Source: a virus
Direction: 5' to 3' (one strand)
DNA: 20,493 nucleotides
IMG/VR virus record: IMGVR_UViG_3300001836_000039
Span: 1 to 20,493 of that record
Shown: positions 1 through 11,136 of the stretch, one piece after another
Position numbering within the stretch: the stretch's first letter is position 1
Layout: each line of letters starts with the position of its first letter
Notes under the pieces: generated by a model
The model's database searches: none
What the model was told of the DNA's origin: nothing
Seen by the model: only the letters and a program-made list of their open reading frames with translations
Position numbers and translations under genes: made by a program

Positions 1-2148
1 CGCCGTCGTGCCGGTGTCCCATGTATAGTCAATAGCGACAGGCCCCGAAGCGCCGGTCGAGCCAGTCGATCCGGTCGCGCCGGTCGCACCCGTCGCACCC
101 GTTGCGCCGGTCGCACCTTGATCGCCCGTGCGATAAAACGACACTAGCAGCTGATCGCCGTTGGTGAGCGCTGTCGGCGCCGTGATGTTGGCGACGTTGA
201 ACGTCAGCCAAGACGAATTGTCGGTAACGGCGCTCGTCACGTCGAACACGGCGACGGTAACGCCCGACGTTTGTTTGCGGATGACGAGCTGGCCGCGATG
301 CGCCGAGGTCGTCGAATCGTCCCACGTTGTGACCCATCCAGAGACGTTGGGGTTTCCGGTCTCGGCTGTCGTCGGAGCGATAGCGATCTGCGTGGCAGAG
401 CCGATCGTGGCGCTATTGAAGCGCAACCCGCCCGCAGACGGCGCGGCCATCGTCGTGGTCGAGTCGTAGGTGTATTTGATGCCGCCGTCAGACCCGGCCG
501 ACCCGGTCGCGCCGGTCGCACCCGTCGCACCCGTCGCACCCGTTGCGCCGGTCGCACCCGTCGCACCCGTCGCGCCGGTCTGCCCCTGCAGCGACACGCC
601 CGCAGGCCATGCCCCGGACGCCTTCGGGCCGTACATGATCCTAGCCGCCGGATCGTACGCATAATCGCCATCGATCCCCGTGTTACTGGACGGCGCCCCG
701 CTCGTCGTTAGGATCGTCTTTACGCTCGACGACGCGCCCGCAAACAGAGCCAGGTCGTAGATGATGACGTAATGAACGTACACGTTCTTGACGCGGTTCT
801 CGCTGATCGTCGGAGAACTGGCGTCGGTGCCGTACAATCCACCCGGCGCAACGAAAGCAGTATAGCTGCTGCCAGTACCGTTACCTACCTGTAACTGCGA
901 GCTCGGAAAATTCTGAATAGTATGCGTGTGCGACTTCAAACCGTCGTTTTGGAACGAGCCGACATGATCGCCGACCGCGCCACCCGTCTTAAGCGCATAG
1001 CGAAGGTTGACCGTGCCGCCCGAGGTATAGGTGCCGGCGAAAACCGAGCCGTTGAGGTCGAACGTCGTCGAGCTTTGGACGGTTATAATCCAGTTGCCGT
1101 TGGCCGCGGTCGCGCCGACGACGCCAGAAATGGTAACGCGGTTGCCGCTTTCGAGCTTTGCTGTGCTGGCCACCGTGATGCGGCAGACGCCCGCCCCGTT
1201 GTTCGTAACGTTGGTCACCGCCAGCGTCGTCGTCGCGTCGGTATCGACGCCCGCGCCATTGTTCCAGCCTCGCGGGACGTAGCCGCGTCTGTCCGGGATG
1301 TTGAACGTGGTCGCGTCGTTCGCGCCGTAGGTCGTGCCGATCACCGCGAACAGATCGGCATAGGTCGTGCGAGATTTTGACGAGCCGTCGCACGTCCACG
1401 TGCCAGCCCATGGCGTCTCAGACGGACACTCGATGATCTGCCCGAGACGCATCAGGCCGCCGGTAATCCGGCTGTCGAGCATGTTGGACGTGATCAAACC
1501 GGACGCGTATCCCGTGCGCGAAAACGCGACAGACTTCCACGCATTTGCGCCGTTGCTTACCAGCGTGATTGCGTCGCCGGTCGCCGTCAGCGCGATTGAG
1601 GACGCGTTGTTGAGCAGATCGCCGCCGGTGCCGATCAGAGTGAGGTTGTTCGAGGCGCCCTTGCGGATCGCGGTGAACGTCGTCCCATTGCCGGCAGCGA
1701 GTGCAGTCGGGATCACGACAGAAATGTTGCCGCCCGAGGTGTCAAACTCTTTTGCCGTCCCGTAATCCGCCGGGACTACGGTGTACGTCGTGGAGGCAAC
1801 CGCGGCGATCGGCACGTTCCAAAGCCCGCTACCCGTGCCGCCGCCAACAGCCGCGCCCTTCACGTTGTCGTGGGAGGCGAGCGTGACGCCGAGCGCGTCC
1901 TTCAGCGTCACTTTGTAGGCATCAGTGCCGGTGTAGATCAGCACCTTGTTGCCGCCGGAGGACGGATAACCGCTCGCGTCGGTCGTGATCGAGACGCCGA
2001 GCGAACTCGACAACCCCAAGTCGGAATAGACCGTCTTCGGCGTCGAGGTGCCAGCGTTGTAGAACTCGATCGACCCACCCGACACCGGGTTGTCGTTCGC
2101 ATCAGTCAGCCGCCAGCCCGGAGGAAAGACGGCAACGGAATCGGTCAT
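1..2148 (-). CDS. Tail fibre with tail-collar domain and collagen-like repeats (partial, runs off left edge)
   Basis: An open frame of 716 codons starts at ATG 2148 and reaches the window edge with no stop, so the C-terminus is missing. Residues about 16-95 (DANDNPVSGGSIEFYNAG, later YTGTDAYKVTLKDA) match the N-terminal domain common on phage tail fibres. A phage tail-collar domain begins near residue 236, with PDRRGYVPRGW at 285-295 and an HTH triad at 407-409. Collagen-like Gly-X-Y blocks lie at about 522-556 (eight GAT triplets) and 675-702. The start is 2 nt after the stop of the metalloprotease-like gene. The likely role is a trimeric receptor-binding fibre, or its stem, at the distal end of the virion. 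The fold assignments come from motif reading; the receptor and the missing tip are unknown. Confidence 0.88.
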   Translation of the reverse strand, partial: MTDSVAVFPPGWRLTDANDNPVSGGSIEFYNAGTSTPKTVYSDLGLSSSLGVSITTDASGYPSSGGNKVLIYTGTDAYKVTLKDALGVTLASHDNVKGAAVGGGTGSGLWNVPIAAVASTTYTVVPADYGTAKEFDTSGGNISVVIPTALAAGNGTTFTAIRKGASNNLTLIGTGGDLLNNASSIALTATGDAITLVSNGANAWKSVAFSRTGYASGLITSNMLDSRITGGLMRLGQIIECPSETPWAGTWTCDGSSKSRTTYADLFAVIGTTYGANDATTFNIPDRRGYVPRGWNNGAGVDTDATTTLAVTNVTNNGAGVCRITVASTAKLESGNRVTISGVVGATAANGNWIITVQSSTTFDLNGSVFAGTYTSGGTVNLRYALKTGGAVGDHVGSFQNDGLKSHTHTIQNFPSSQLQVGNGTGSSYTAFVAPGGLYGTDASSPTISENRVKNVYVHYVIIYDLALFAGASSSVKTILTTSGAPSSNTGIDGDYAYDPAARIMYGPKASGAWPAGVSLQGQTGATGATGATGATGATGATGATGATGSAGSDGGIKYTYDSTTTMAAPSAGGLRFNSATIGSATQIAIAPTTAETGNPNVSGWVTTWDDSTTSAHRGQLVIRKQTSGVTVAVFDVTSAVTDNSSWLTFNVANITAPTALTNGDQLLVSFYRTGDQGATGATGATGATGATGSTGSTGASGPVAIDYTWDTGTTA
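43..126 (-). repeat. Collagen-like tandem repeat block 2 inside the tail fibre
   Basis: A second Gly-X-Y run (GDQ, five GAT triplets, GST, GST, GAS, GP) lies about 120 residues downstream of block 1. Between the blocks sits a beta-rich stretch without Gly-X-Y periodicity. The central part of this block is nearly identical in DNA to part of block 1, so the two could recombine in frame. Confidence 0.88.
481..585 (-). repeat. Collagen-like tandem repeat block 1 inside the tail fibre
   Basis: These 105 bp encode 35 residues of Gly-X-Y: GQT, then eight consecutive GAT triplets, then GSA, GSD and GG. At DNA level this is a 9-bp unit alternating between ggtgcgacg-type and ggcgcgacc-type copies. Such units are expected to form a trimeric collagen-like stem and to change in copy number by slippage. 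Confidence 0.9.
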
Positions 2149-2150
2149 GT

Positions 2151-3605
2151 CTATTGGGTGTCCTGAGACGAACGCGCACTAGCCGCAGCGCCGCCGGCCA
2201 TCAGGCCAGCCAAGCCGTAGCGGCGGAGGATTTCTTCAATAGTGTTCATGTCTACGTCGCGCCCGGCGTTAAACCTGTCCGCCGGGGAAGCAACTTTCGG
2301 CTTTCCATTGGCACGGATGCCCTGGGGTGGGTGCGAGAACGTTTGACCTGGAGGCGTCACTCCTGCCGCGCCGTCGCGGCGCACAAGTTCGGCCGGCGGT
2401 TGGTAGTCCCTCGAAACACGCCCTTTCGCGTCGAAATAGTCGCGCGCCGCTGGCGTCATTGCTTCTGGCGCATAAACGTCAAGACGATGCGGGGCGGTGT
2501 CCCAAATCGCCGACGGGCCTCGCGTTGCCGCCATGTTGTCGTAAAGGACCGAAGCGCGCGCCAGCCGTTCTTGCGTATTGTTCAGATACGCGGCCAAATC
2601 GCGAGCTTCACCGGCCTCGCTTGGCTTTATGCGTCTCAAAGCAACGCCGATCTTTTCCGCAGTCGTGTCACGCACGGGCGGCTCGCCCACGCGGGCGCCT
2701 CTGAGCCCAACGCCATCCTCGATCGAAGCGAGATGTGCGAGTTCGTGTTTCAGCGTCGATACAAGATCGGGCTTGGAGTTGCCACCAAACGTGATGCTTT
2801 CCCCGCCGCCGGGGAGGACGTATTCGGACATGGTTCCGTCATTACGAGATGACACTTGACCATGCCCACCGTTGTTTGCCTCAACACGCGATGTTTTTGA
2901 GGCAAGCGCAGGTTGCGCTGTTTGCAAATCCGCAGGAAGTTCAACAAGATCGCCAAGGCGGCCCGTTCTTGCTTCAAACTTGCCGCCCGCAAAAGCCGGA
3001 TCAAGCGCCTGCCAGATTTCCGGTTTTAGCGTTGTTTTCGACGTGTCGACCCACGTCATCGGTTTTGACCCCGGAGCGACACCCCCGAATGTCTCCGGGT
3101 GCCCCCACCCGGTTGCTTTCCACACGCGGTCTTGGAGCTCCGGCGATCCCATCCCGTGCTTGCGCCAGATATCTTGCGCGACTTGCAGGGCTTCTTTCGA
3201 ACCGGGCGCACCGGGGGCGATCCGGCCCGCTGTTTGCAACCGCAGCGCGCCCGCAGGGCCGATGAACGCCGCAGGTATCAGGAAATTTGACGCCAACAGT
3301 AGCTTTTGCGCCGCGTCGCTGTTGAGCGCGTCGGCTACTGCGGCCCGCCAAGGGTGGTTTTCCCGCAAATTCCACGGGCTCCCCGGCGTGTTTTCCCACA
3401 TGGCGTTGACGGCTTGGGTGTTCCTCAGATCATCTGCATACTTGCTACGGTCGACATGGACTTGAGGGACCCCGAGGCGCGTAATCCAATCGGCGAATAC
3501 CGGCTGCGCCGACGCTCGCTTGGAAAACGGCGATCCCTCAGCGTCTGCGCTCTCTGCTGCGACGTAGGGGCCCCAGTTCATCAGGGCGTTTTGCGTCATG
3601 CTCAC
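2151..3605 (-). CDS. HELAH-motif putative metallopeptidase, ejected-protein candidate
   Basis: The product has 484 residues. The start ATG overlaps the upstream stop (ATGA). Residues 286-291 read KHELAH, the HExxH zinc-binding signature, with H287, E288 and H291. The motif is preceded by TL and followed by a possible third-ligand helix, YLNNTQER, at 340-347. The segment around 155-215 (tGWgHPE, then WVDTSK and a GRLGDLVE-like string) recalls the domain found before HExxH in large phage polyvalent proteins. A small hydrophobic run, GLAGLMAGGAAA, sits at the C-terminus. The gene is the last before the tail fibre and follows three ejection-protein candidates, so packaging in the virion and delivery into the cell is a reasonable inference. 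The substrate is unknown and activity is unproven. Confidence 0.75.
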   Translation of the reverse strand: MSMTQNALMNWGPYVAAESADAEGSPFSKRASAQPVFADWITRLGVPQVHVDRSKYADDLRNTQAVNAMWENTPGSPWNLRENHPWRAAVADALNSDAAQKLLLASNFLIPAAFIGPAGALRLQTAGRIAPGAPGSKEALQVAQDIWRKHGMGSPELQDRVWKATGWGHPETFGGVAPGSKPMTWVDTSKTTLKPEIWQALDPAFAGGKFEARTGRLGDLVELPADLQTAQPALASKTSRVEANNGGHGQVSSRNDGTMSEYVLPGGGESITFGGNSKPDLVSTLKHELAHLASIEDGVGLRGARVGEPPVRDTTAEKIGVALRRIKPSEAGEARDLAAYLNNTQERLARASVLYDNMAATRGPSAIWDTAPHRLDVYAPEAMTPAARDYFDAKGRVSRDYQPPAELVRRDGAAGVTPPGQTFSHPPQGIRANGKPKVASPADRFNAGRDVDMNTIEEILRRYGLAGLMAGGAAASARSSQDTQ

Positions 3606-5605
3606 TCCATCGCCATAGGGACATACGACCTATGGAGCCATGGGGATTGACGCGGCGGCGACTGATCTCCCGCTCTTCCACCGATCGCGGAATCGATCAA
3701 TCTAGCCGCGCCCGCACGCCTGACGGGGGTCTGTGCCGCGCGCCGCATGCTGTAGTCCGCAAGCGCGTTGATCATCGCCGGATCGCGCGACATACCAATG
3801 GTGAGCAACTCGTTCGCCACCGCTGGCGTCATGCCGGTAAAACGGTTGTAGCCCTGCGCGACAAGGTTCAGGGCGGGTTCCAGCTTGCCCGTTAGCGCGT
3901 TCATGACGTTGTTCGCGACACGAGACGCCTTGCCCGCCTGCTCGCCCTCGGCGAGTTGCTTTGCCGTCGTCGAGTTGCCCTGCAACGCCTTCCGGCTGTC
4001 CGCCATCTTCGCTTCGATGACAAGCTTCTTCTGGAATTCGCGGAACGACGCACTGTCCGGAAGCACTGCGCGCAATTTCATCTGCATCAACGGCGATCCG
4101 AACACGCCGTCTGTTCGGTCGAGGTTTGCGTTTCCCGCTCGAACCTTGTCAATCACCGCCCGTTGCGCGCCGAGCCGGTACATCATGCGCTCGGCGCCGG
4201 TTCCAAGCGCCTCGATCGCTGCTGTGATCTCTTCCGGGGCTGCTTTGGTGAAGTGCTCAAAGCCGTCTTCGGCGGCGTTCATGAGCTTGGCTTGGCCCGC
4301 GTATTGCTTCAGTGCGTGCTTGTATTCCGGGTTGTCGATCGCATTCATAAAATCGCGCCAGAGCGTCGTCAGCGTGCCCTTGTCCCATCCGGCTTGGGGC
4401 TTATTGCCCATCTTCTGTGCACGCACCGCAATCCCGATTTGGTCATCCAGTTCAAGCTTCATCCGGTGGAAAAATTCAGTTGTATTTAAAGTGTTGATCG
4501 GCCGGCCTTCGTCCGCGATCTTGCGCGCCACGATCGATTGCAACTCCTGCATCGTCGGCCGCTCAAGCACCGCCGCGAGCTTCGGCGTGATCTTGGTTTC
4601 CGTGCGGAGCGCCGGCTGGATCGCCGCGTTGCCGATCTCGTCCATGTTTTGGGCCAGTTTGGCAATCGACTGATGGTAGTTGTCGCCGATGCCGAAGGCG
4701 TCTTTCAGATCACTTTCGAGGCGTGCGTATTGGTTTGCCGCCCGAGCGTCGAGCGCTCGCTTGGCGCCAGCCCGCGCTTGGTTCGGCACGTTGACGGCAG
4801 CGCGCATGATGCCGTGCACGTTCTCGCCGCCCGCGTCCATGACGCGCGCCTGCGGATTGCCTTGGCTCATGGTTGCAAACTTGTTGGCGAACCGGGCCGC
4901 TTCACGCGCCGGTATTCCAGCGCCGTCAGCCGCAACTGACATATCGCGATAAATCGCCTCGCTCAGCTTCTCGGCCGCCATGGATCGCGGGTTCATCGCC
5001 GCACGGATCGGAGTCGTAGCCCTGGTTGCCACCGCGCCGGCTAAATCGACGGCGCCAGGCGCCAGCGCGCCGAGCGGCCCTGCAATAACGGCGCCCTTGA
5101 CCGCGCCCGTCAGTCGATCCGGTAGCCAGCCTTCGGCGGTTCCAGCTCCGGTTGCGGCGCCGTAGGCCGCAGCTTCTTTGCCAGCAGCGAGAGACCGAGC
5201 ACCAAGCCCAAGATTAGAAGCGGTGGCAAGAGACCCACGAATTCCTGCACGGGCAAGCCCTCCGGGCACAATCAGCGATCCGCCAATGTCGCCTGCGTAG
5301 AACGCTACCGGGTTCGAATCCTTGGCGGCGGCAACGCGAGCGCGCGGGATCGCGACGCCCTCATCGTATAGATCACCGATACTGCGCTTGTCACCTGTGA
5401 GTTTGCCGTACAACGCACGCGCGCCGCCCTCGATCTCGTCTGCGAATCCGAGCGTCACGCCTTGCGCAAGACCTTCCGCGCCAGCGGCAAAGTTGCCGAC
5501 CTCTGGGGTCTGCTCGATCAACTTAAACCCCGGCGGCAACTGAATGTTGCTCGCTGGCGTGATCAGGGCAAACCCCGGCGGAAGTTGCACATTGGGATCG
5601 GCCAT
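3602..5605 (-). CDS. Large DNA-ejection / internal virion protein (P22 gp16 position)
   Basis: The product has 667 residues. The start ATG shares its A with the upstream stop (TAATG). Two copies of QLPPGF lie near the N-terminus (about residues 7-12 and 22-27). Alanine/glycine-rich hydrophobic stretches at about 105-205, including GAVKGAVIAGPLGALAPGA, could insert in a membrane. The rest is long, helical and charged. Size, the last position of three large proteins after the tail genes, and the hydrophobic segments fit an ejection protein that forms part of a trans-envelope conduit. No catalytic motif was seen. Sequence similarity to P22 gp16 itself was not recognised, so the call rests on position and composition. 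Confidence 0.68.
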   Translation of the reverse strand: MADPNVQLPPGFALITPASNIQLPPGFKLIEQTPEVGNFAAGAEGLAQGVTLGFADEIEGGARALYGKLTGDKRSIGDLYDEGVAIPRARVAAAKDSNPVAFYAGDIGGSLIVPGGLARAGIRGSLATASNLGLGARSLAAGKEAAAYGAATGAGTAEGWLPDRLTGAVKGAVIAGPLGALAPGAVDLAGAVATRATTPIRAAMNPRSMAAEKLSEAIYRDMSVAADGAGIPAREAARFANKFATMSQGNPQARVMDAGGENVHGIMRAAVNVPNQARAGAKRALDARAANQYARLESDLKDAFGIGDNYHQSIAKLAQNMDEIGNAAIQPALRTETKITPKLAAVLERPTMQELQSIVARKIADEGRPINTLNTTEFFHRMKLELDDQIGIAVRAQKMGNKPQAGWDKGTLTTLWRDFMNAIDNPEYKHALKQYAGQAKLMNAAEDGFEHFTKAAPEEITAAIEALGTGAERMMYRLGAQRAVIDKVRAGNANLDRTDGVFGSPLMQMKLRAVLPDSASFREFQKKLVIEAKMADSRKALQGNSTTAKQLAEGEQAGKASRVANNVMNALTGKLEPALNLVAQGYNRFTGMTPAVANELLTIGMSRDPAMINALADYSMRRAAQTPVRRAGAARLIDSAIGGRAGDQSPPRQSPWLHRSYVPMAME

Positions 5606-6876
5606 TACTGTGCAAGCCTCCAGTTTATACCGTCATCGCTTTCGATGATCTGGCCTTGCGAGCTTTGGGCACGGTATCTGGGCGCCGCCGCTGGCTGCTG
5701 TGGCGTTTGCGGCTGCGGTCGCGGTTGCTGGGGGCCGCCTTGCGGCTGGTAGTAGTTGCCGCCGCGAAGCTGATCGACACGCTGCTGATTGAAATCGATG
5801 CGCCGTTCGGCCAACGCAATGGCCCGCCGGTAAATCTCATCGCGTACCGACTGCGCCTTGTTGACCGATCCGGCCAACTCCAGGAGGATTTTGCGCTCGC
5901 CCTCGGTCGGGTTGCCGCCGAAGATGGATTTTAGGCTCTGCACCGCGTTCGTGGCGACGATGTTGTGCAGGTTCTCCGTGGCCTCGCCGGCAGGCGAACC
6001 CACTATCGAACTAATGTAGCCTCGCGCGCCCGCAGTCGGCCCGGTGTAAGCCTTGGCGCTCTCTTGCAAGGCAAGTTTCAGGTTTTCCACGGACTGCCGA
6101 GCCGTCTGAAGCTGTTCTTCCGCCTCAAACACCGCTTTCTTGTCCGTGGCCGTCATCGGATCGGCCTGCGGCAACTTCCCGTTCGCGAGGTACACCTTGC
6201 CCGCGTGCGAATTCGGGTCGACTCCCATTTCGGAGAGCTTGGCGCGGCGACCTTCCGTCGTGTCGCCTGCCGTCGTCGGGGTGAAGGTGCCGGCCCGTTC
6301 GTTGACGAATCCGCCGGTCTCGCCTTCCTTGAAGTGCACGAACTTGTTGGACGGCGGCGCGTAGTTGCCCGTGATGACGAACTGCTTGCCCTCCGGCGTG
6401 CTCGCGTCGATGCCGAACCGATGGGCATTCGCCATGCGCCATTCCGGCGTTTGCATCTTGAGCTGCTGAAGCTGGGCCATCGATGTGGCCGTGCCCGCGC
6501 GCGAATGTTCGATTGACGCCTCGGCCTTGCGCCGCTCGATGTCGTCGTTTCGCGCCTGCATCAGCGCGTTGAGGCCGTAGTGCAGCCCTTCCGGGCCAAG
6601 CGCGCCGACGAACGGGCGAACCCCCGCCGGAAGATCCGCCATGTTGGCGGGGTTGCTCATGAACGTCTGGTAGCGTTGCTGCGCCAGAGCGCGATCGTCG
6701 AGCCGCGCGTCAACTTCTCGCTTGTGCAACCCGAACTGGTCCCGCGCGAGCTGGTGTTTCGCCTGCTCATCCATCCCGCGCCGGTACTGCATCAGCGCGT
6801 TGTTGATCGGCTCGAAGAAATTCCCAGGGTCGACTTGCGTCGCCTGATAGGCCGGGAGCTGCATCAGTGGCGGCAT
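5605..6876 (-). CDS. Ejection / internal virion protein (P22 gp20 position)
   Basis: The product has 423 residues. The start ATG lies 10 nt after the previous stop, with GAGGG as a plausible ribosome site. The N-terminal half is charged and helical, with Q/R-rich stretches (residues about 30-165). A middle helical part contains GPTAGARGYISSIVGSP and IFGGNPTEGERKILLELAG. Residues about 375-402 form a proline/glutamine linker (PQGGPQQPRPQPQTPQQP) ahead of a short tail ending in INWRLAQ. The helical, low-cysteine make-up and its place in the block between tail hub and tail fibre suggest a protein packed in the head and ejected with DNA. No enzyme motif was seen. The call is from context. Confidence 0.62.
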   Translation of the reverse strand: MPPLMQLPAYQATQVDPGNFFEPINNALMQYRRGMDEQAKHQLARDQFGLHKREVDARLDDRALAQQRYQTFMSNPANMADLPAGVRPFVGALGPEGLHYGLNALMQARNDDIERRKAEASIEHSRAGTATSMAQLQQLKMQTPEWRMANAHRFGIDASTPEGKQFVITGNYAPPSNKFVHFKEGETGGFVNERAGTFTPTTAGDTTEGRRAKLSEMGVDPNSHAGKVYLANGKLPQADPMTATDKKAVFEAEEQLQTARQSVENLKLALQESAKAYTGPTAGARGYISSIVGSPAGEATENLHNIVATNAVQSLKSIFGGNPTEGERKILLELAGSVNKAQSVRDEIYRRAIALAERRIDFNQQRVDQLRGGNYYQPQGGPQQPRPQPQTPQQPAAAPRYRAQSSQGQIIESDDGINWRLAQ

Positions 6877-6886
6877 GCGTCAGCCC

Positions 6887-7660
6887 TCACCATTGTCCGG
6901 CGCCAGTGACGGGCAGATAGCCGCCGGTCTCGCCTGTTCCGCCGCCACTCCACCAATTCGAAAGCGCGTTGCCCATGTTGCCGAAGGCCGAGCTGCCTCC
7001 CGCGCCAGGGACAGTCCCCTGCATAATGAACTGCCCTAACCCGCCCGCGCCCTTCATGATCGCGTTTACTGAGTTGGTCTTGTTCGCAGCGCTCGCGTTT
7101 CCGTAGTTGATCGCGTTGCCGGCTTGTTGCTGACCGAGCCCAAGTCGGGCATCGCCTTGCCACTGCCCGAACTGATTGGCCATTTGCGCCTGTTGGCCAG
7201 CGATCTGAGCACCCATCCCAGCCTGGCCTTGCAAGCGAGATTGCCAATTATTGTAATCCTGATACCCCATGCCCTGCCGCGCGCGGGCGACGGCCAGCGC
7301 GTTGTATCCCGTGTTGAGGCCGCCCCGGGCGTTCGCGGCCCGGTCGATTTCCGTTTGAGCGCGGTTTTGCTCCCAATCGAGATAGGGATTGCGGGCGTTC
7401 TGGTACATCGTCAGGGCGTTTTTGCCGCCCTCGGCGCCGTTGAGGCCGATCGAGTCGTCATAGGCCGACTGAGCGCGCCGCCCGCTTGCGGCATACGGGT
7501 CGTAATAGCTCTGCGCCTTGTCGTAGTAGCCCTTCGCCGCCCCCGTCGCTTCGTCGTAGCCGGATTGCAGATAGCCCTTCGACTGGTTGTAGGCGTTGTC
7601 GATGTCCTTCTGCTGGCTCTTGCCAGTCAGCTTGTCGAAAAAACCGCCGAACGCGCTCAT
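6887..7660 (-). CDS. Glycine/glutamine-rich DNA-transfer (ejection) protein candidate (P22 gp7 position)
   Basis: The product has 257 residues and begins MSAFGGFFDKLTG. An upstream in-frame start exists, but ATG 7660 overlaps the stop of the 42-residue gene (ATGA) and is preferred. Residues 30-90 are rich in tyrosine, alanine and glycine (GYYDKAQSYYDPYAASG). Residues 120-215 are rich in Q, G and N, with several QAG or QQA strings. A glycine-rich hydrophobic C-terminus ends in GAGQW. This make-up is typical of podophage DNA-transfer proteins encoded just after the tail completion genes. It is assumed to be an internal virion protein, and no precise homologue was recognised. Confidence 0.62.
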   Translation of the reverse strand: MSAFGGFFDKLTGKSQQKDIDNAYNQSKGYLQSGYDEATGAAKGYYDKAQSYYDPYAASGRRAQSAYDDSIGLNGAEGGKNALTMYQNARNPYLDWEQNRAQTEIDRAANARGGLNTGYNALAVARARQGMGYQDYNNWQSRLQGQAGMGAQIAGQQAQMANQFGQWQGDARLGLGQQQAGNAINYGNASAANKTNSVNAIMKGAGGLGQFIMQGTVPGAGGSSAFGNMGNALSNWWSGGGTGETGGYLPVTGAGQW

Positions 7661-7785
7661 GGAGCCCTCTTCAGTGCGAGCAATAGGGCCGCGAAGAACT
7701 GCAGCCACACCTTGTTCATGGTCCCGTCGTCGTTGATCACGGGCGTCGAGGCGGCCGGGAGCGGCGGGAGATTGGAGATCGCCAT
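7657..7785 (-). CDS. Small conserved-looking phage protein, 42 residues
   Basis: ATG 7785 overlaps the gp10-like stop as TGATG, and the stop overlaps the next ATG as ATGA, so the gene is tightly fitted between two virion genes. The product begins MAISNLPPLP and contains INDDGTMNKVWLQFF followed by a leucine/alanine run. Short proteins with a 'v..dGk.t..W..ff..L' pattern often occur next to phage tail genes. Their role is not established as far as I can tell. The hydrophobic end could be a membrane or packing helix. A longer upstream in-frame extension reads through the gp10 gene and is not needed. Confidence 0.65.
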   Translation of the reverse strand: MAISNLPPLPAASTPVINDDGTMNKVWLQFFAALLLALKRAP

Positions 7786-9284
7786 CAGGCCACCAGTTTT
7801 TCTGCGTCGAGCGCGGCTTGCATCCAGCCCTTCACGACGGCGGCGGAAACCGAGAACTCGAACGTGCGCCCCTGAGGCGGGACAATCCCAAGGCGACGCA
7901 TGATCCCGCGCCGGATCGTGTCGCCCTGCCGCCCGAGAGGGATGCGCCGCTCGCCCGACCACGTGGCGCCGCCGTTGTCCGACCAGCGCACCATCATCTC
8001 GGGGGTGGCGTCCTGCGTTGCCGTGCTGTTGAGCCCGACGCCAGCGACAAAATCCACGTAGAGCGTGCCGACCTGCAATCGGTTCGGGAACGAATGCACC
8101 GGAGGCGTCCGCACGGTCATGATCAGCGGCGCGTTGCCCTCAGAGGCATAGTCGAGGCTCATCGTGTAGAGCTTGCCGAGGGTGGCATCGCCCGCGATCC
8201 ACTTTGTGCCGAAATTGGAAACCACCGAGCATCGCCAGCGGCTTTTGCCGTAGCTCTGCCGCTCGCTCCAGGTGTTGGTGGTCCGGTTCCAACACCACGT
8301 CCAATCCGGCGAGCTGATCTGGTAGAAACTGTGCCCGCGCGCCGCCCATGACGTAGACGTGATTTGATCCGGCACGGCAGACGCAATGTCACGCTCTACC
8401 GCATGTGTCGAGATGCGCTGCCCATCGTAGCCCGCCATTAGCCGCACGGTTCCATCGTGCGCAATCCATGCAAGCGTGCGCTCCACCTTCGCGACGCTAC
8501 CGGCGGCGAGGCATCCAAGCTCGGCGATGGCCACGCGGCCATCCTTAAACGGAAAATCGACGTTGCCAGTGTCTTTCCACCATTCCGTCGATCGCGAGCC
8601 GAACAGCACCACCTCGCCCTCGCGCGTCTCGGCGCGCACGATCTCATCCGGGTTGCTGTCCGCCGTGCCGAAATCGAGCGGATCGATCGTTGTAAAATCA
8701 TCGATACCGGTCGTGAACCACCGCCCGTTGCTCACTGGAATGATGCCATACCCGTCAAGCACGGTAAGCGACGATCCCGGCGGCAGGGTCCAGGCGCTGG
8801 ACGCCGCCCCTAATGACGGGTCCGTTAGCGTGGGGTCCGGGTCCGTTAGCGTGGGGTCCGTTAGCGTGCTCGTGCTCGTCGCGCCTGTCACCAATTGAAG
8901 CGTATTGGCACCCGTGTCGATTACGTAAAAAAGGCCCGAAGACAAAATGCCAATTTGCGGGACAGCGCGCCGATTCCGCGCCATGTAGACCGGCCCATCT
9001 GTCGGAATGCCGCCAATCGTCGTCACGCCGCCGCCCGCGTCCACCCGATACACCTGCCGGCCCGACACGACGTAGAGATAGGCACCGACCTCGATCATCC
9101 CGCGCACACCAGCGCTCGCCAGCGTCGCAAAGTTGGCAAGCCCATCGTGCGCCACGATCAAATTCGGCGTTTTCGCCTGGTCTCCACTCTGCTCCACGTA
9201 GCAGTTGATGTGCCGAGCCGCGCCCGCAACATCAAACCGCGCCCTGTTGCTGCCGGTGCCGAGGGAAATGGGGACGACCGTCAC
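7785..9284 (-). CDS. Packaged-DNA stabilisation / tail-hub protein, P22 gp10-like
   Basis: The product has 499 residues (P22 gp10 has 472). The GTG start overlaps the upstream stop (GTGA). The N-terminus (VPISLGTGSNRARFD, then INCYVEQ), followed by beta-propeller-like repeats such as YLYVVSGRQVYRVD, WFTTGIDDFTTIDPLDFG and VVLFGSRSTEWWKDTG, matches the P22 stabilisation-protein family. That family closes the portal after packaging and bridges to the tail. The SRSTEWW motif at about 230 is characteristic. A short TLTDP-repeat insert lies at residues about 140-156. The gene directly follows the gp4-like gene, as in P22. Confidence 0.9.
   Translation of the reverse strand: MTVVPISLGTGSNRARFDVAGAARHINCYVEQSGDQAKTPNLIVAHDGLANFATLASAGVRGMIEVGAYLYVVSGRQVYRVDAGGGVTTIGGIPTDGPVYMARNRRAVPQIGILSSGLFYVIDTGANTLQLVTGATSTSTLTDPTLTDPDPTLTDPSLGAASSAWTLPPGSSLTVLDGYGIIPVSNGRWFTTGIDDFTTIDPLDFGTADSNPDEIVRAETREGEVVLFGSRSTEWWKDTGNVDFPFKDGRVAIAELGCLAAGSVAKVERTLAWIAHDGTVRLMAGYDGQRISTHAVERDIASAVPDQITSTSWAARGHSFYQISSPDWTWCWNRTTNTWSERQSYGKSRWRCSVVSNFGTKWIAGDATLGKLYTMSLDYASEGNAPLIMTVRTPPVHSFPNRLQVGTLYVDFVAGVGLNSTATQDATPEMMVRWSDNGGATWSGERRIPLGRQGDTIRRGIMRRLGIVPPQGRTFEFSVSAAVVKGWMQAALDAEKLVA
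8819..8868 (-). repeat. Three imperfectly spaced copies of a 14-bp unit inside the gp10-like gene
   Basis: The plus-strand unit ggtccgttagcgtg occurs at 8819-8832, 8840-8853 and 8855-8868. The offsets are 21 and 15 bp, both multiples of three, so the frame is kept. It encodes the low-complexity string TLTDPTLTDPDPTLTDPS, which interrupts the propeller-like protein between two beta segments. It is probably a recent slippage expansion in a surface loop. Confidence 0.92.
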
Positions 9285-9874
9285 TGTATCTGATCGATCT
9301 GATAGGGCCAGATTTGCGAGGGCATGCGCGTCAAGCCGTAGTCGACGGCGACCGGGCGGATCGGCATGAAGGCAGCTATGAGCGCGGTCATTCCGTCGCT
9401 CGCGCGCTTTGCCGTCAGCGGGCCAGGATCGACGTTGAACGACGCGGCCATGTTCATGGCGAGCATGGCGATGACGCCCGACCTGAACTCGAGCCCAAGC
9501 GGGAACTCGTCATCGATCGCAAGTTCCACCATCGGGTAGGCTGTCCAGTAGGACGACCAGTTCGGCGACGTGCCGGGCCGGTCGTATTCGCTGGACGTGT
9601 GCAGCGTCGAACAGACGTAGACGCTGCCGGAGCGCAGCACGCCATCGTTGACAGCGTACTGTGTGAGCGTCGCCCAATCGCCGCGCCAGTTGATGCCCGC
9701 GGGAAGCGTCCCGAGCAGCGGCGGAATGAACATGCCCTGCGTAAGCCACCGCGCGGCCATCTCGTTGAGCCCGGCGAGGGTGTCGCTGATGGCCTCCGCC
9801 GAAGGGGTTTCCCCCTCCGCCGTGAACATCAGTTCCTTCAGAGCCCGAGTGCAGATGTCGCGCGCGGTGGCCAT
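9281..9874 (-). CDS. Tail accessory / head-completion protein, P22 gp4-like, with carbohydrate-binding-like insert
   Basis: The product has 197 residues (P22 gp4 has about 166). ATG 9874, two bases after the coat stop, gives MATARDICTRALKEL, the typical N-terminus of the gp4 family. The later part, with LEFRSGVIAMLAMNMAASF, also fits the family. P22 gp4 binds the portal ring after packaging and is needed for tail assembly. Residues about 61-112 are an insert with aromatic spacing W63, W67, Y73, Y86, C88, H92, W106 and W110, plus the strings SVYVCSTLHTS and TSPNWSSYW. This resembles a CBM5/12-type chitin-binding module and accounts for the extra length. The gp4 call is strong; the binding function of the insert is inference. 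Confidence 0.85.
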   Translation of the reverse strand: MATARDICTRALKELMFTAEGETPSAEAISDTLAGLNEMAARWLTQGMFIPPLLGTLPAGINWRGDWATLTQYAVNDGVLRSGSVYVCSTLHTSSEYDRPGTSPNWSSYWTAYPMVELAIDDEFPLGLEFRSGVIAMLAMNMAASFNVDPGPLTAKRASDGMTALIAAFMPIRPVAVDYGLTRMPSQIWPYQIDQIQ

Positions 9875-9876
9875 GA

Positions 9877-11136
9877 TTACGAGCCCGACACGCGCACGCC
9901 GAGGCGCGGATCGATGACCTTCCGGCCATAGAGCAGATCGAGGCGCCATTTCGAAATGTCGTTGGTACCGTCGTAGATCGGGATCACGCGAACCGACAGG
10001 CCCTTGTAGCTCTCGCGGTGTCCGCCGTAGGCCGCCGCCGGCATCTCCATCGGCACCACGGCCAACGCCATCGCGTTCTTGTGGTACATCAGGTTTTGCG
10101 GGTAGCCGGTCGAGGCCGTGCCGTTGATGACGATGCCGGCGTTGTCGGCAGGGGCCACGTTGACGGTCTGGTGCGGGCCGCTGGTGATGATCGGCGGCGA
10201 GATCGTCAGCGTCAGGTTGCCCGAGCCGTCAGACGAGCCGTCCGCGGTGATGACGAACTGCGCATCCTGATCCGTCACCGCCTTCGTTTTCGGGTTGACG
10301 AATTTCACCTTCGCGCCCGACGAGCCAGCCGCGTAGATCGTGAACACATCGCCTTCCTTGACGCGGGAGGCAGCCGCAGCCGTCCAGCCGTCGGTGATCA
10401 GCGATTGCGTCCAGGAGTTCTTCGCCGTGTCGTACGTGACGTTCTGCGCACCACCGTTGACCAGCGGCGTGCCGCCGAGCGGGCCGACCGTGTGCGTAGG
10501 TACGACCTGGCTCATGCGGGTCTCGACGCCGCCGATCTTGCCGAGCGAGCCTTCACGGTAGGCGCCCTTGGCCGCGTCCTGGATGTAGAGCGCGGTTTGA
10601 GACCCGAGCAGACCCCAGTGATCGGCCGGCGACAGAGCGGCGTTGCGGCCATCCATCGGCATGGCCATGGTATCCATGCGCTGCGGACCAAGCGCAAAGT
10701 CGGCGAAACTGTTTATGGTCTGGCCCGGCGTGCCTACCCAATGATAGAGCCGCTTGTACATGGTCGAGAACACGTCGTTCGCCATGTAGTTGATGATGCT
10801 GCTCATCGCAGGCTTCATCACGCGTTCGGACAGGTCCGTTATCTTCAACGTCAGGTCCGAGCTGGTGAACTGGAAGTCGACGCCGACCTGTTGGTCGATC
10901 GTCAGCGTGGTCTTGCCCTCGATCACGTCCTGCGCCGACAGCGTGGCGCCGGTGCGCACCGTGAAATCGGCCGGGCGACGGATGCTGATCGTATCGCCGA
11001 CCTTGTAGCCGTTGACGGTGTTCGAGAACTCGTCTTCGTAGGCTCGATGGACCGTCTTCAGTACGCCAAGTTCGTTTTCGAGGATCGCCAGTGCGGTCCT
11101 GGCGACCACATCTGCGGTAAGTGTCGTGTTGCTCAT
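9877..11136 (-). CDS. Major capsid protein, P22 coat (gp5) family
   Basis: The product has 419 residues (P22 coat has 430). It begins MSNTTLTADVVARTALAILEN, and YKVGDTISIRRPADFTVR followed by DLTLKITDLSERVMKPAM is diagnostic of the P22 coat family (HK97 fold). Residues about 220-330 (WTAAAASRVKEGDVFTIY, then beta-rich segments and LTISPPII) correspond to the inserted domain on the coat surface that stabilises P22 coat. The ATG is preceded by GAGAGATC. The gene lies 24 bp downstream of the scaffold gene, in the order portal, scaffold, coat. It forms the icosahedral shell. Confidence 0.95.
   Translation of the reverse strand: MSNTTLTADVVARTALAILENELGVLKTVHRAYEDEFSNTVNGYKVGDTISIRRPADFTVRTGATLSAQDVIEGKTTLTIDQQVGVDFQFTSSDLTLKITDLSERVMKPAMSSIINYMANDVFSTMYKRLYHWVGTPGQTINSFADFALGPQRMDTMAMPMDGRNAALSPADHWGLLGSQTALYIQDAAKGAYREGSLGKIGGVETRMSQVVPTHTVGPLGGTPLVNGGAQNVTYDTAKNSWTQSLITDGWTAAAASRVKEGDVFTIYAAGSSGAKVKFVNPKTKAVTDQDAQFVITADGSSDGSGNLTLTISPPIITSGPHQTVNVAPADNAGIVINGTASTGYPQNLMYHKNAMALAVVPMEMPAAAYGGHRESYKGLSVRVIPIYDGTNDISKWRLDLLYGRKVIDPRLGVRVSGS

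Follow-up and report, generated by a model that had tools for sequence, protein, structure and literature searches.

A divergent solo LPD23/metallopeptidase gene beside phage ejection genes, with a C-terminal tail common to ART-PolyVal proteins and a natural catalytic deletion in a sister phage

Introduction

The metallopeptidase (MPTase) is the commonest domain of phage polyvalent proteins (Iyer et al. 2017, PMC5512222), and the role of this most frequent of their enzyme domains is still unproven. Autoprocessing, processing within the head and attack on host proteins have each been put forward, all of them as proposals (PMC5512222). The class is already known from that work. Phages often carry short solo members of it, and one of these phages is P22-like. 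A second described system is gp50 (vRNAP) of phage N4, an ejected protein whose C1 domain carries an HExxH motif and has been described as resembling zincins (PMC12633501).

Here we describe a gene of this kind in a 20,493-nt sequence from an uncultured, P22-like phage (IMG/VR record IMGVR_UViG_3300001836_000039), referred to below as the window. Its product is a divergent solo member of the known class, in the expected genomic place. We put at roughly 60% the probability that it is a small single-enzyme relative of the polyvalent proteins that serves as an injected accessory zinc-peptidase cargo. What the locus adds is, in close relatives, a natural deletion of the catalytic part and, in the window protein, a tail shared with ART cargo.

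Results

The features of the locus are collected in Table 1. The start codon as called is GTG; the alternative ATG two codons in, with GGAG ahead of it, is on sequence grounds the likelier start. Residues are numbered here from the GTG of ORF 3605..2151, and in this numbering KHELAH occupies residues 286-291 and YLNNTQER residues 340-347, exactly where the original prediction had placed them. The ORF directly adjoins the 667-aa ORF, whose stop lies at 3602-3604, and family matches of the neighbours bear out the context first described, a gene set between three ejection-protein candidates and the tail fibre. The window portal belongs to phrog_156, with portals named P22-like as its best matches in annotated phages. 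Searches for promoter and terminator signals gave none above shuffles. From the composition of the protein, 0.008 occurrences of HExxH would be expected; the six-frame translation of the 20.5-kb window has two, one in this gene and one in a plus-strand frame.

Elsewhere in the window, residues 83-133 of the head-tail adaptor (phrog_637; 9281-9949, minus strand) resemble the tail-fibre modules phrog_5073 and phrog_9851, and this stretch is perhaps an inserted surface-binding domain.

Table 1. Coordinates of the solo gene, its parts and its neighbours in the window
Feature	Position (nt)	Strand	Details
Tail fibre/collar protein, runs off window	1..2148	-	Start 2 nt past the stop of the solo gene
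Solo LPD23/metallopeptidase gene (candidate cargo)	2151..3605	-	484 codons from GTG; 482 from ATG at 3599
C-terminal tail TIEEILRRYGLAGLMAGGAAASARSSQDTQ, residues 455-484	2154..2243	-	Common to phage ART-PolyVal proteins
In-frame deleted segment in L001-L003, ~residues 264-456, whole catalytic part	2236..2816	-	Comparison with relatives
Predicted third-ligand helix, residues 339-352; E346 favoured, E330 alternative	2550..2591	-	Alignments and PWM
HELAH, residues 287-291; predicted Zn ligands H287 and H291, predicted general base E288	2733..2747	-	Invariant columns
LPD23-like segment, residues ~136-190, TGW motif at 165-167	3036..3200	-	PF18838 sub-threshold match and hhalign
phrog_5880 protein, ejection-protein candidate, directly upstream	3602..5605	-	667 aa; E 1e-58
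phrog_24990 protein, ejection-protein candidate	5605..6876	-	423 aa; family match
P22-like DNA ejection protein, phrog_598	6887..7708	-	273 aa; E 3e-7

Direct scans of Pfam, PHROG and NCBIfam with the protein sequence gave no model at its cut-off, and PDB gave nothing usable. Neither tblastn in the phage collection nor scans of genome contigs returned a close relative, and a scan with the C-terminal half of the protein found no relatives. A DinB_2 match (E 0.019) lay under the cut-off and was discarded. A consensus fragment, used to probe the phage collection, first led to the canonical family, after which only retrieved real sequences were used; the members read were EBPR podovirus 3 gp3 (335 aa), ct2G2228 UOF81783.1 (299 aa), F116, AF and others. 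Among 47 family members, Pfam LPD23 matches 46, and DUF6782, a putative metallopeptidase, matches 18 at E<=0.01.

Compared by hhalign with the LPD23 plus putative-metallopeptidase module of these 47 members, residues 136-300 of the window protein matched at 95.6% (E 1.3e-8), over 139 columns that extend far past the HExxH motif. The maximum among 150 shuffles preserving STLKHELAH was 47.6%, and five neighbouring window proteins all stayed below 1%. A 74-sequence HMM scored the protein at 15.2 bits, with residues 136-291 aligned, against a maximum of 6.5 in 2000 shuffles. In these profile comparisons HELAH falls where the family has its catalytic helix. The LPD23 model itself (PF18838) gave 8.9 bits at residues ~158-168, which does not reach its gathering cut-off of 27 bits, and for this reason we claim LPD23 membership only as a distant homologue, through profile-profile comparison; the DUF6782 model (PF20573) did not match the protein. 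Identity to family members is 15-23%, and the residues altered from the family-invariant state fall in HExQH (HELAH here), in AYP (AQP here) and in the R/F-E-I-x-D motif of LPD23. The resemblance of the upstream segments to the polyvalent-protein metallopeptidase domain, suspected in the original prediction, was recovered as homology by hhalign, a 48-row alignment, AlphaFold2 and Foldseek.

With a six-member alignment from which the window protein was left out, 80 family loci were retrieved from viral contigs. HExxH is present in all 80, including 9/9 recruited by the LPD23 pattern alone, although 66 of the 80 are no test of its conservation because they match only the recruiting pattern that contains HExxH. 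Conservation of the motif among homologues differs with distance: the distant relatives have it, whereas the closest ones (L001-L003, below) are without the whole segment. Family ORFs are mostly short, 46 of the 59 complete ones being <=700 aa, and solo members (290-600 aa) adjoin genes for portal, terminase, capsid or internal virion proteins. In the P22-like ct2G2228 the solo member comes after the tail spike. Many solo LPD23/MPTase genes (e.g. L021, L040, L083, L087, L091) lie beside portal and terminase genes, not ejection genes, and such neighbours hint at packaging with the head. Having one enzymatic domain, the window protein falls outside the polyvalent proteins sensu Iyer et al. 2017 (PMC5512222), which are defined by several unrelated enzyme domains within one polypeptide.

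The columns invariant in the 48-row alignment are, in window numbering, L227, H287, E288, H291, G303, Y340, E346 and R350. When the family third-ligand helix was scored along the whole protein as a PWM, the E346 site was the top-scoring place, with 134 of 5000 shuffles equalling it. Most alignment sets place E346 at the third-ligand Glu; since some prefer E330, assignment of E346 as the third zinc ligand from the alignments is probable rather than certain.

AlphaFold2 run on the family alignment gave a mean pLDDT of 71.7 and a pTM of 0.73, and for most blocks of the core pLDDT was between 80 and 96; from the single sequence, without relatives, pLDDT was only 34.7. The model, which leans on the alignment, has the three-stranded sheet and flanking helices of the polyvalent MPTase fold. 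HELAH sits on model helix 168-186 (residues 278-296), the first C-terminal helix, which is the place of HExxH in polyvalent MPTases. In a Foldseek search of BFVD the ten leading matches all had probability 1.00, and five carry the name Large polyvalent protein; the same model found no significant match in PDB, N4 vRNAP appearing at E 1.7 only. The confident core and the matches of both Foldseek and hhalign to polyvalent phage proteins are in line with the original prediction. As the input alignment had already brought the residues together, the model is supporting and not independent evidence for the third ligand.

The closest relatives are three viral contigs (L001-L003) that are mutually identical across the region. 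They share ~91% DNA identity with the window in the tail fibre and 89% in the solo gene, from which they have lost the entire catalytic part in frame. What they keep is the N-terminus together with the LPD23 part and, at the other end, the final 27-28 residues. This in-frame natural deletion of the catalytic segment is a new observation. With the metallopeptidase present in the wider family, it is simpler to suppose that L001 lost it. Because the HExxH segment was lost in frame, the catalytic half is dispensable in the L001-L003 lineage; the deletion shows dispensability in that lineage only and says nothing on what the catalytic half does. In the comparison with L001, dN/dS is ~0.13 (0.046/0.363) for residues 113-263 and ~0.08 (0.017/0.212) for the tail.

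Further upstream, L001 and the window are 82% identical over 6352-9274. Between 3605 and 6352 there is a mosaic exchange, in which L001 encodes, in place of the 667-aa phrog_5880 protein, an unrelated one of 730 aa that matches no PHROG, and the catalytic deletion might be linked to this swap of the ejection candidate. Two other contigs, L099 and L100 (IMGVR 3300001842_000070 and 3300001849_000281), match parts of the window at 100% identity. As 3300001849 also holds the deletion variant L002, the window phage and the deletion phage co-occur in one metagenome.

The C-terminal tail led to a different set of proteins. When DNA was searched with a degenerate pattern encoding IEILR[x]YGL, 42 contigs matched, and nearly all matches lie <=38 residues from a C-terminus. 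Three of these contigs are L001-L003, with the solo gene itself; ten other proteins bearing the pattern were tested, and 10/10 match ART-PolyVal (PF18760), most of them just under the family cut-off. The form EILR[RK]YGLxGxxAGGAA was noted in the window, L187, L203, L105 and L182-L223, and the tail of L203 (IEILRKYGLAGLMAGGAA) is a close match to that of the window protein. Other solo metallopeptidases in the sample lack an ART-type tail. Sharing of this tail between a metallopeptidase and ART-PolyVal proteins is a new observation.

The phrog_5880 gene directly precedes the metallopeptidase gene here and in L026, and directly precedes ART genes in L187 and L146; the L146 ART protein has a different C-terminal end, without the shared tail, and in L105 the ART gene stands two genes further on. 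A slot behind the phrog_5880 candidate that holds either a metallopeptidase (here, L026) or an ART (L187, L146) is likewise new. Loci of phrog_5880 relatives were found with an alignment-based scan, the single 667-aa sequence having given none as a query. Within the fetched flanks of these loci a family metallopeptidase was present in 0 of 80, with positive controls detected, and the metallopeptidase is therefore not a fixed partner of phrog_5880.

Discussion

We propose that the window protein combines three parts: an LPD23-type segment on the N-terminal side, then a metallopeptidase domain of the zincin type, and a C-terminal tail of the ART-cargo type. H287, E288 and H291, together with a downstream Glu that is probably E346, would hold zinc and activate water. 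Expression is probably late, the gene forming a tight operon with those for the ejection proteins, and the product would then probably be packaged and injected along with the DNA; early in infection it would cleave a host protein, or itself. The protein looks accessory, because enzymes of another kind can fill the slot and a phage can do without the catalytic half. Its single enzyme, its dispensability, its interchangeability with ART genes and the lack of a tie to phrog_5880 are best accounted for by an injected accessory effector.

A maturation protease would instead act during assembly on itself or on the neighbouring ejection proteins, in the way Iyer et al. suggest for P1 DdrB; for polyvalent MPTases the leading proposal is autoproteolysis (PMC5512222). 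In the L001 phage neither the 667-aa ejection protein nor the catalytic half is present, a pattern that would fit a joint loss of protease and substrate, and because the ejection protein went too we regard maturation as unlikely rather than dismiss it. However, a protein with a single enzymatic domain has little to release, and N4 vRNAP, in which an HExxH domain is present, is packaged unprocessed (PMC5512222). The count of 0/80 phrog_5880 loci with a nearby family metallopeptidase also leaves ejectosome maturation, one of the roles first suggested for this gene, unsupported as a general role.

The L001-L003 proteins retain just the LPD23 part and the tail in frame, both with low dN/dS, and the loss of the catalytic segment would suit a non-catalytic virion or ejection component in which the HExxH fold survives as a vestige or serves as a scaffold, the important elements being the two retained parts. 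A vestige would be expected to lose its catalytic positions, though, and in the window protein all of them are intact despite much non-catalytic divergence, which makes a non-catalytic role quite improbable. A chance HExxH in an unrelated protein, consistent as it is with the lack of any Pfam model at its cut-off, is highly implausible when the 139-column profile-profile match beats every STLKHELAH-preserving shuffle and the HMM, AlphaFold2 and Foldseek results concur on the family.

Alongside the preferred reading of an injected accessory peptidase, a more speculative and on balance doubtful idea concerns the tail. E-I-L-R-[RK]-Y-G-L-x-G-x2-A-G-G-A-A might be a portable packaging/ejection tag, with podovirus-type phages swapping enzymes (zincin, ADP-ribosyltransferase) in a fixed slot after phrog_5880 and the tag persisting in L001 after deletion of the enzyme. 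The shared stretch may, however, begin within the final strand of the ART domain, so that part of the tail could be an ART remnant from recombination and not a tag. The presence of one tail on two unrelated enzymes is suggestive of a modular signal for delivery. A 50-kDa solo member together with a sister-phage catalytic deletion makes a tractable test, because the putative delivery parts are separable from catalysis.

Among known systems, the polyvalent metallopeptidase module (LPD23 PF18838 plus a DUF6782-like zincin; PMC5512222) was compared through EBPR podovirus 3 gp3, ct2G2228 UOF81783.1 and Pseudomonas phage F116 gp60. The window protein has in common with it the domain order, the HExxH helix, a probable Y-x5-E-x3-R third-ligand helix, the predicted fold, the late structural-gene context and the solo form. 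It differs in having HELAH where the module has HE[ILV]QH and in its degenerate HP-x-LF-x-AYP and EGF-x-GG motifs, and the ART-type C-terminal tail sets it apart from the sampled solo metallopeptidases. N4 gp50 is an ejected phage protein bearing an HExxH domain. It is 3,500 aa long, and neither our model (Foldseek E 1.7) nor our profile (none at E<=10) matched it significantly; we treat it as a functional analogue, not as an established relative. The ART-PolyVal (PF18760) cargo proteins with the tail IEILRKYGL-x-G-x2-AGGAA (L187, L203, L105) have their C-terminal tail in common with the window protein and, in L187, the slot after phrog_5880, which the tail-less ART of L146 also occupies; they carry an ADP-ribosyltransferase domain, whereas the window protein has a predicted zincin.
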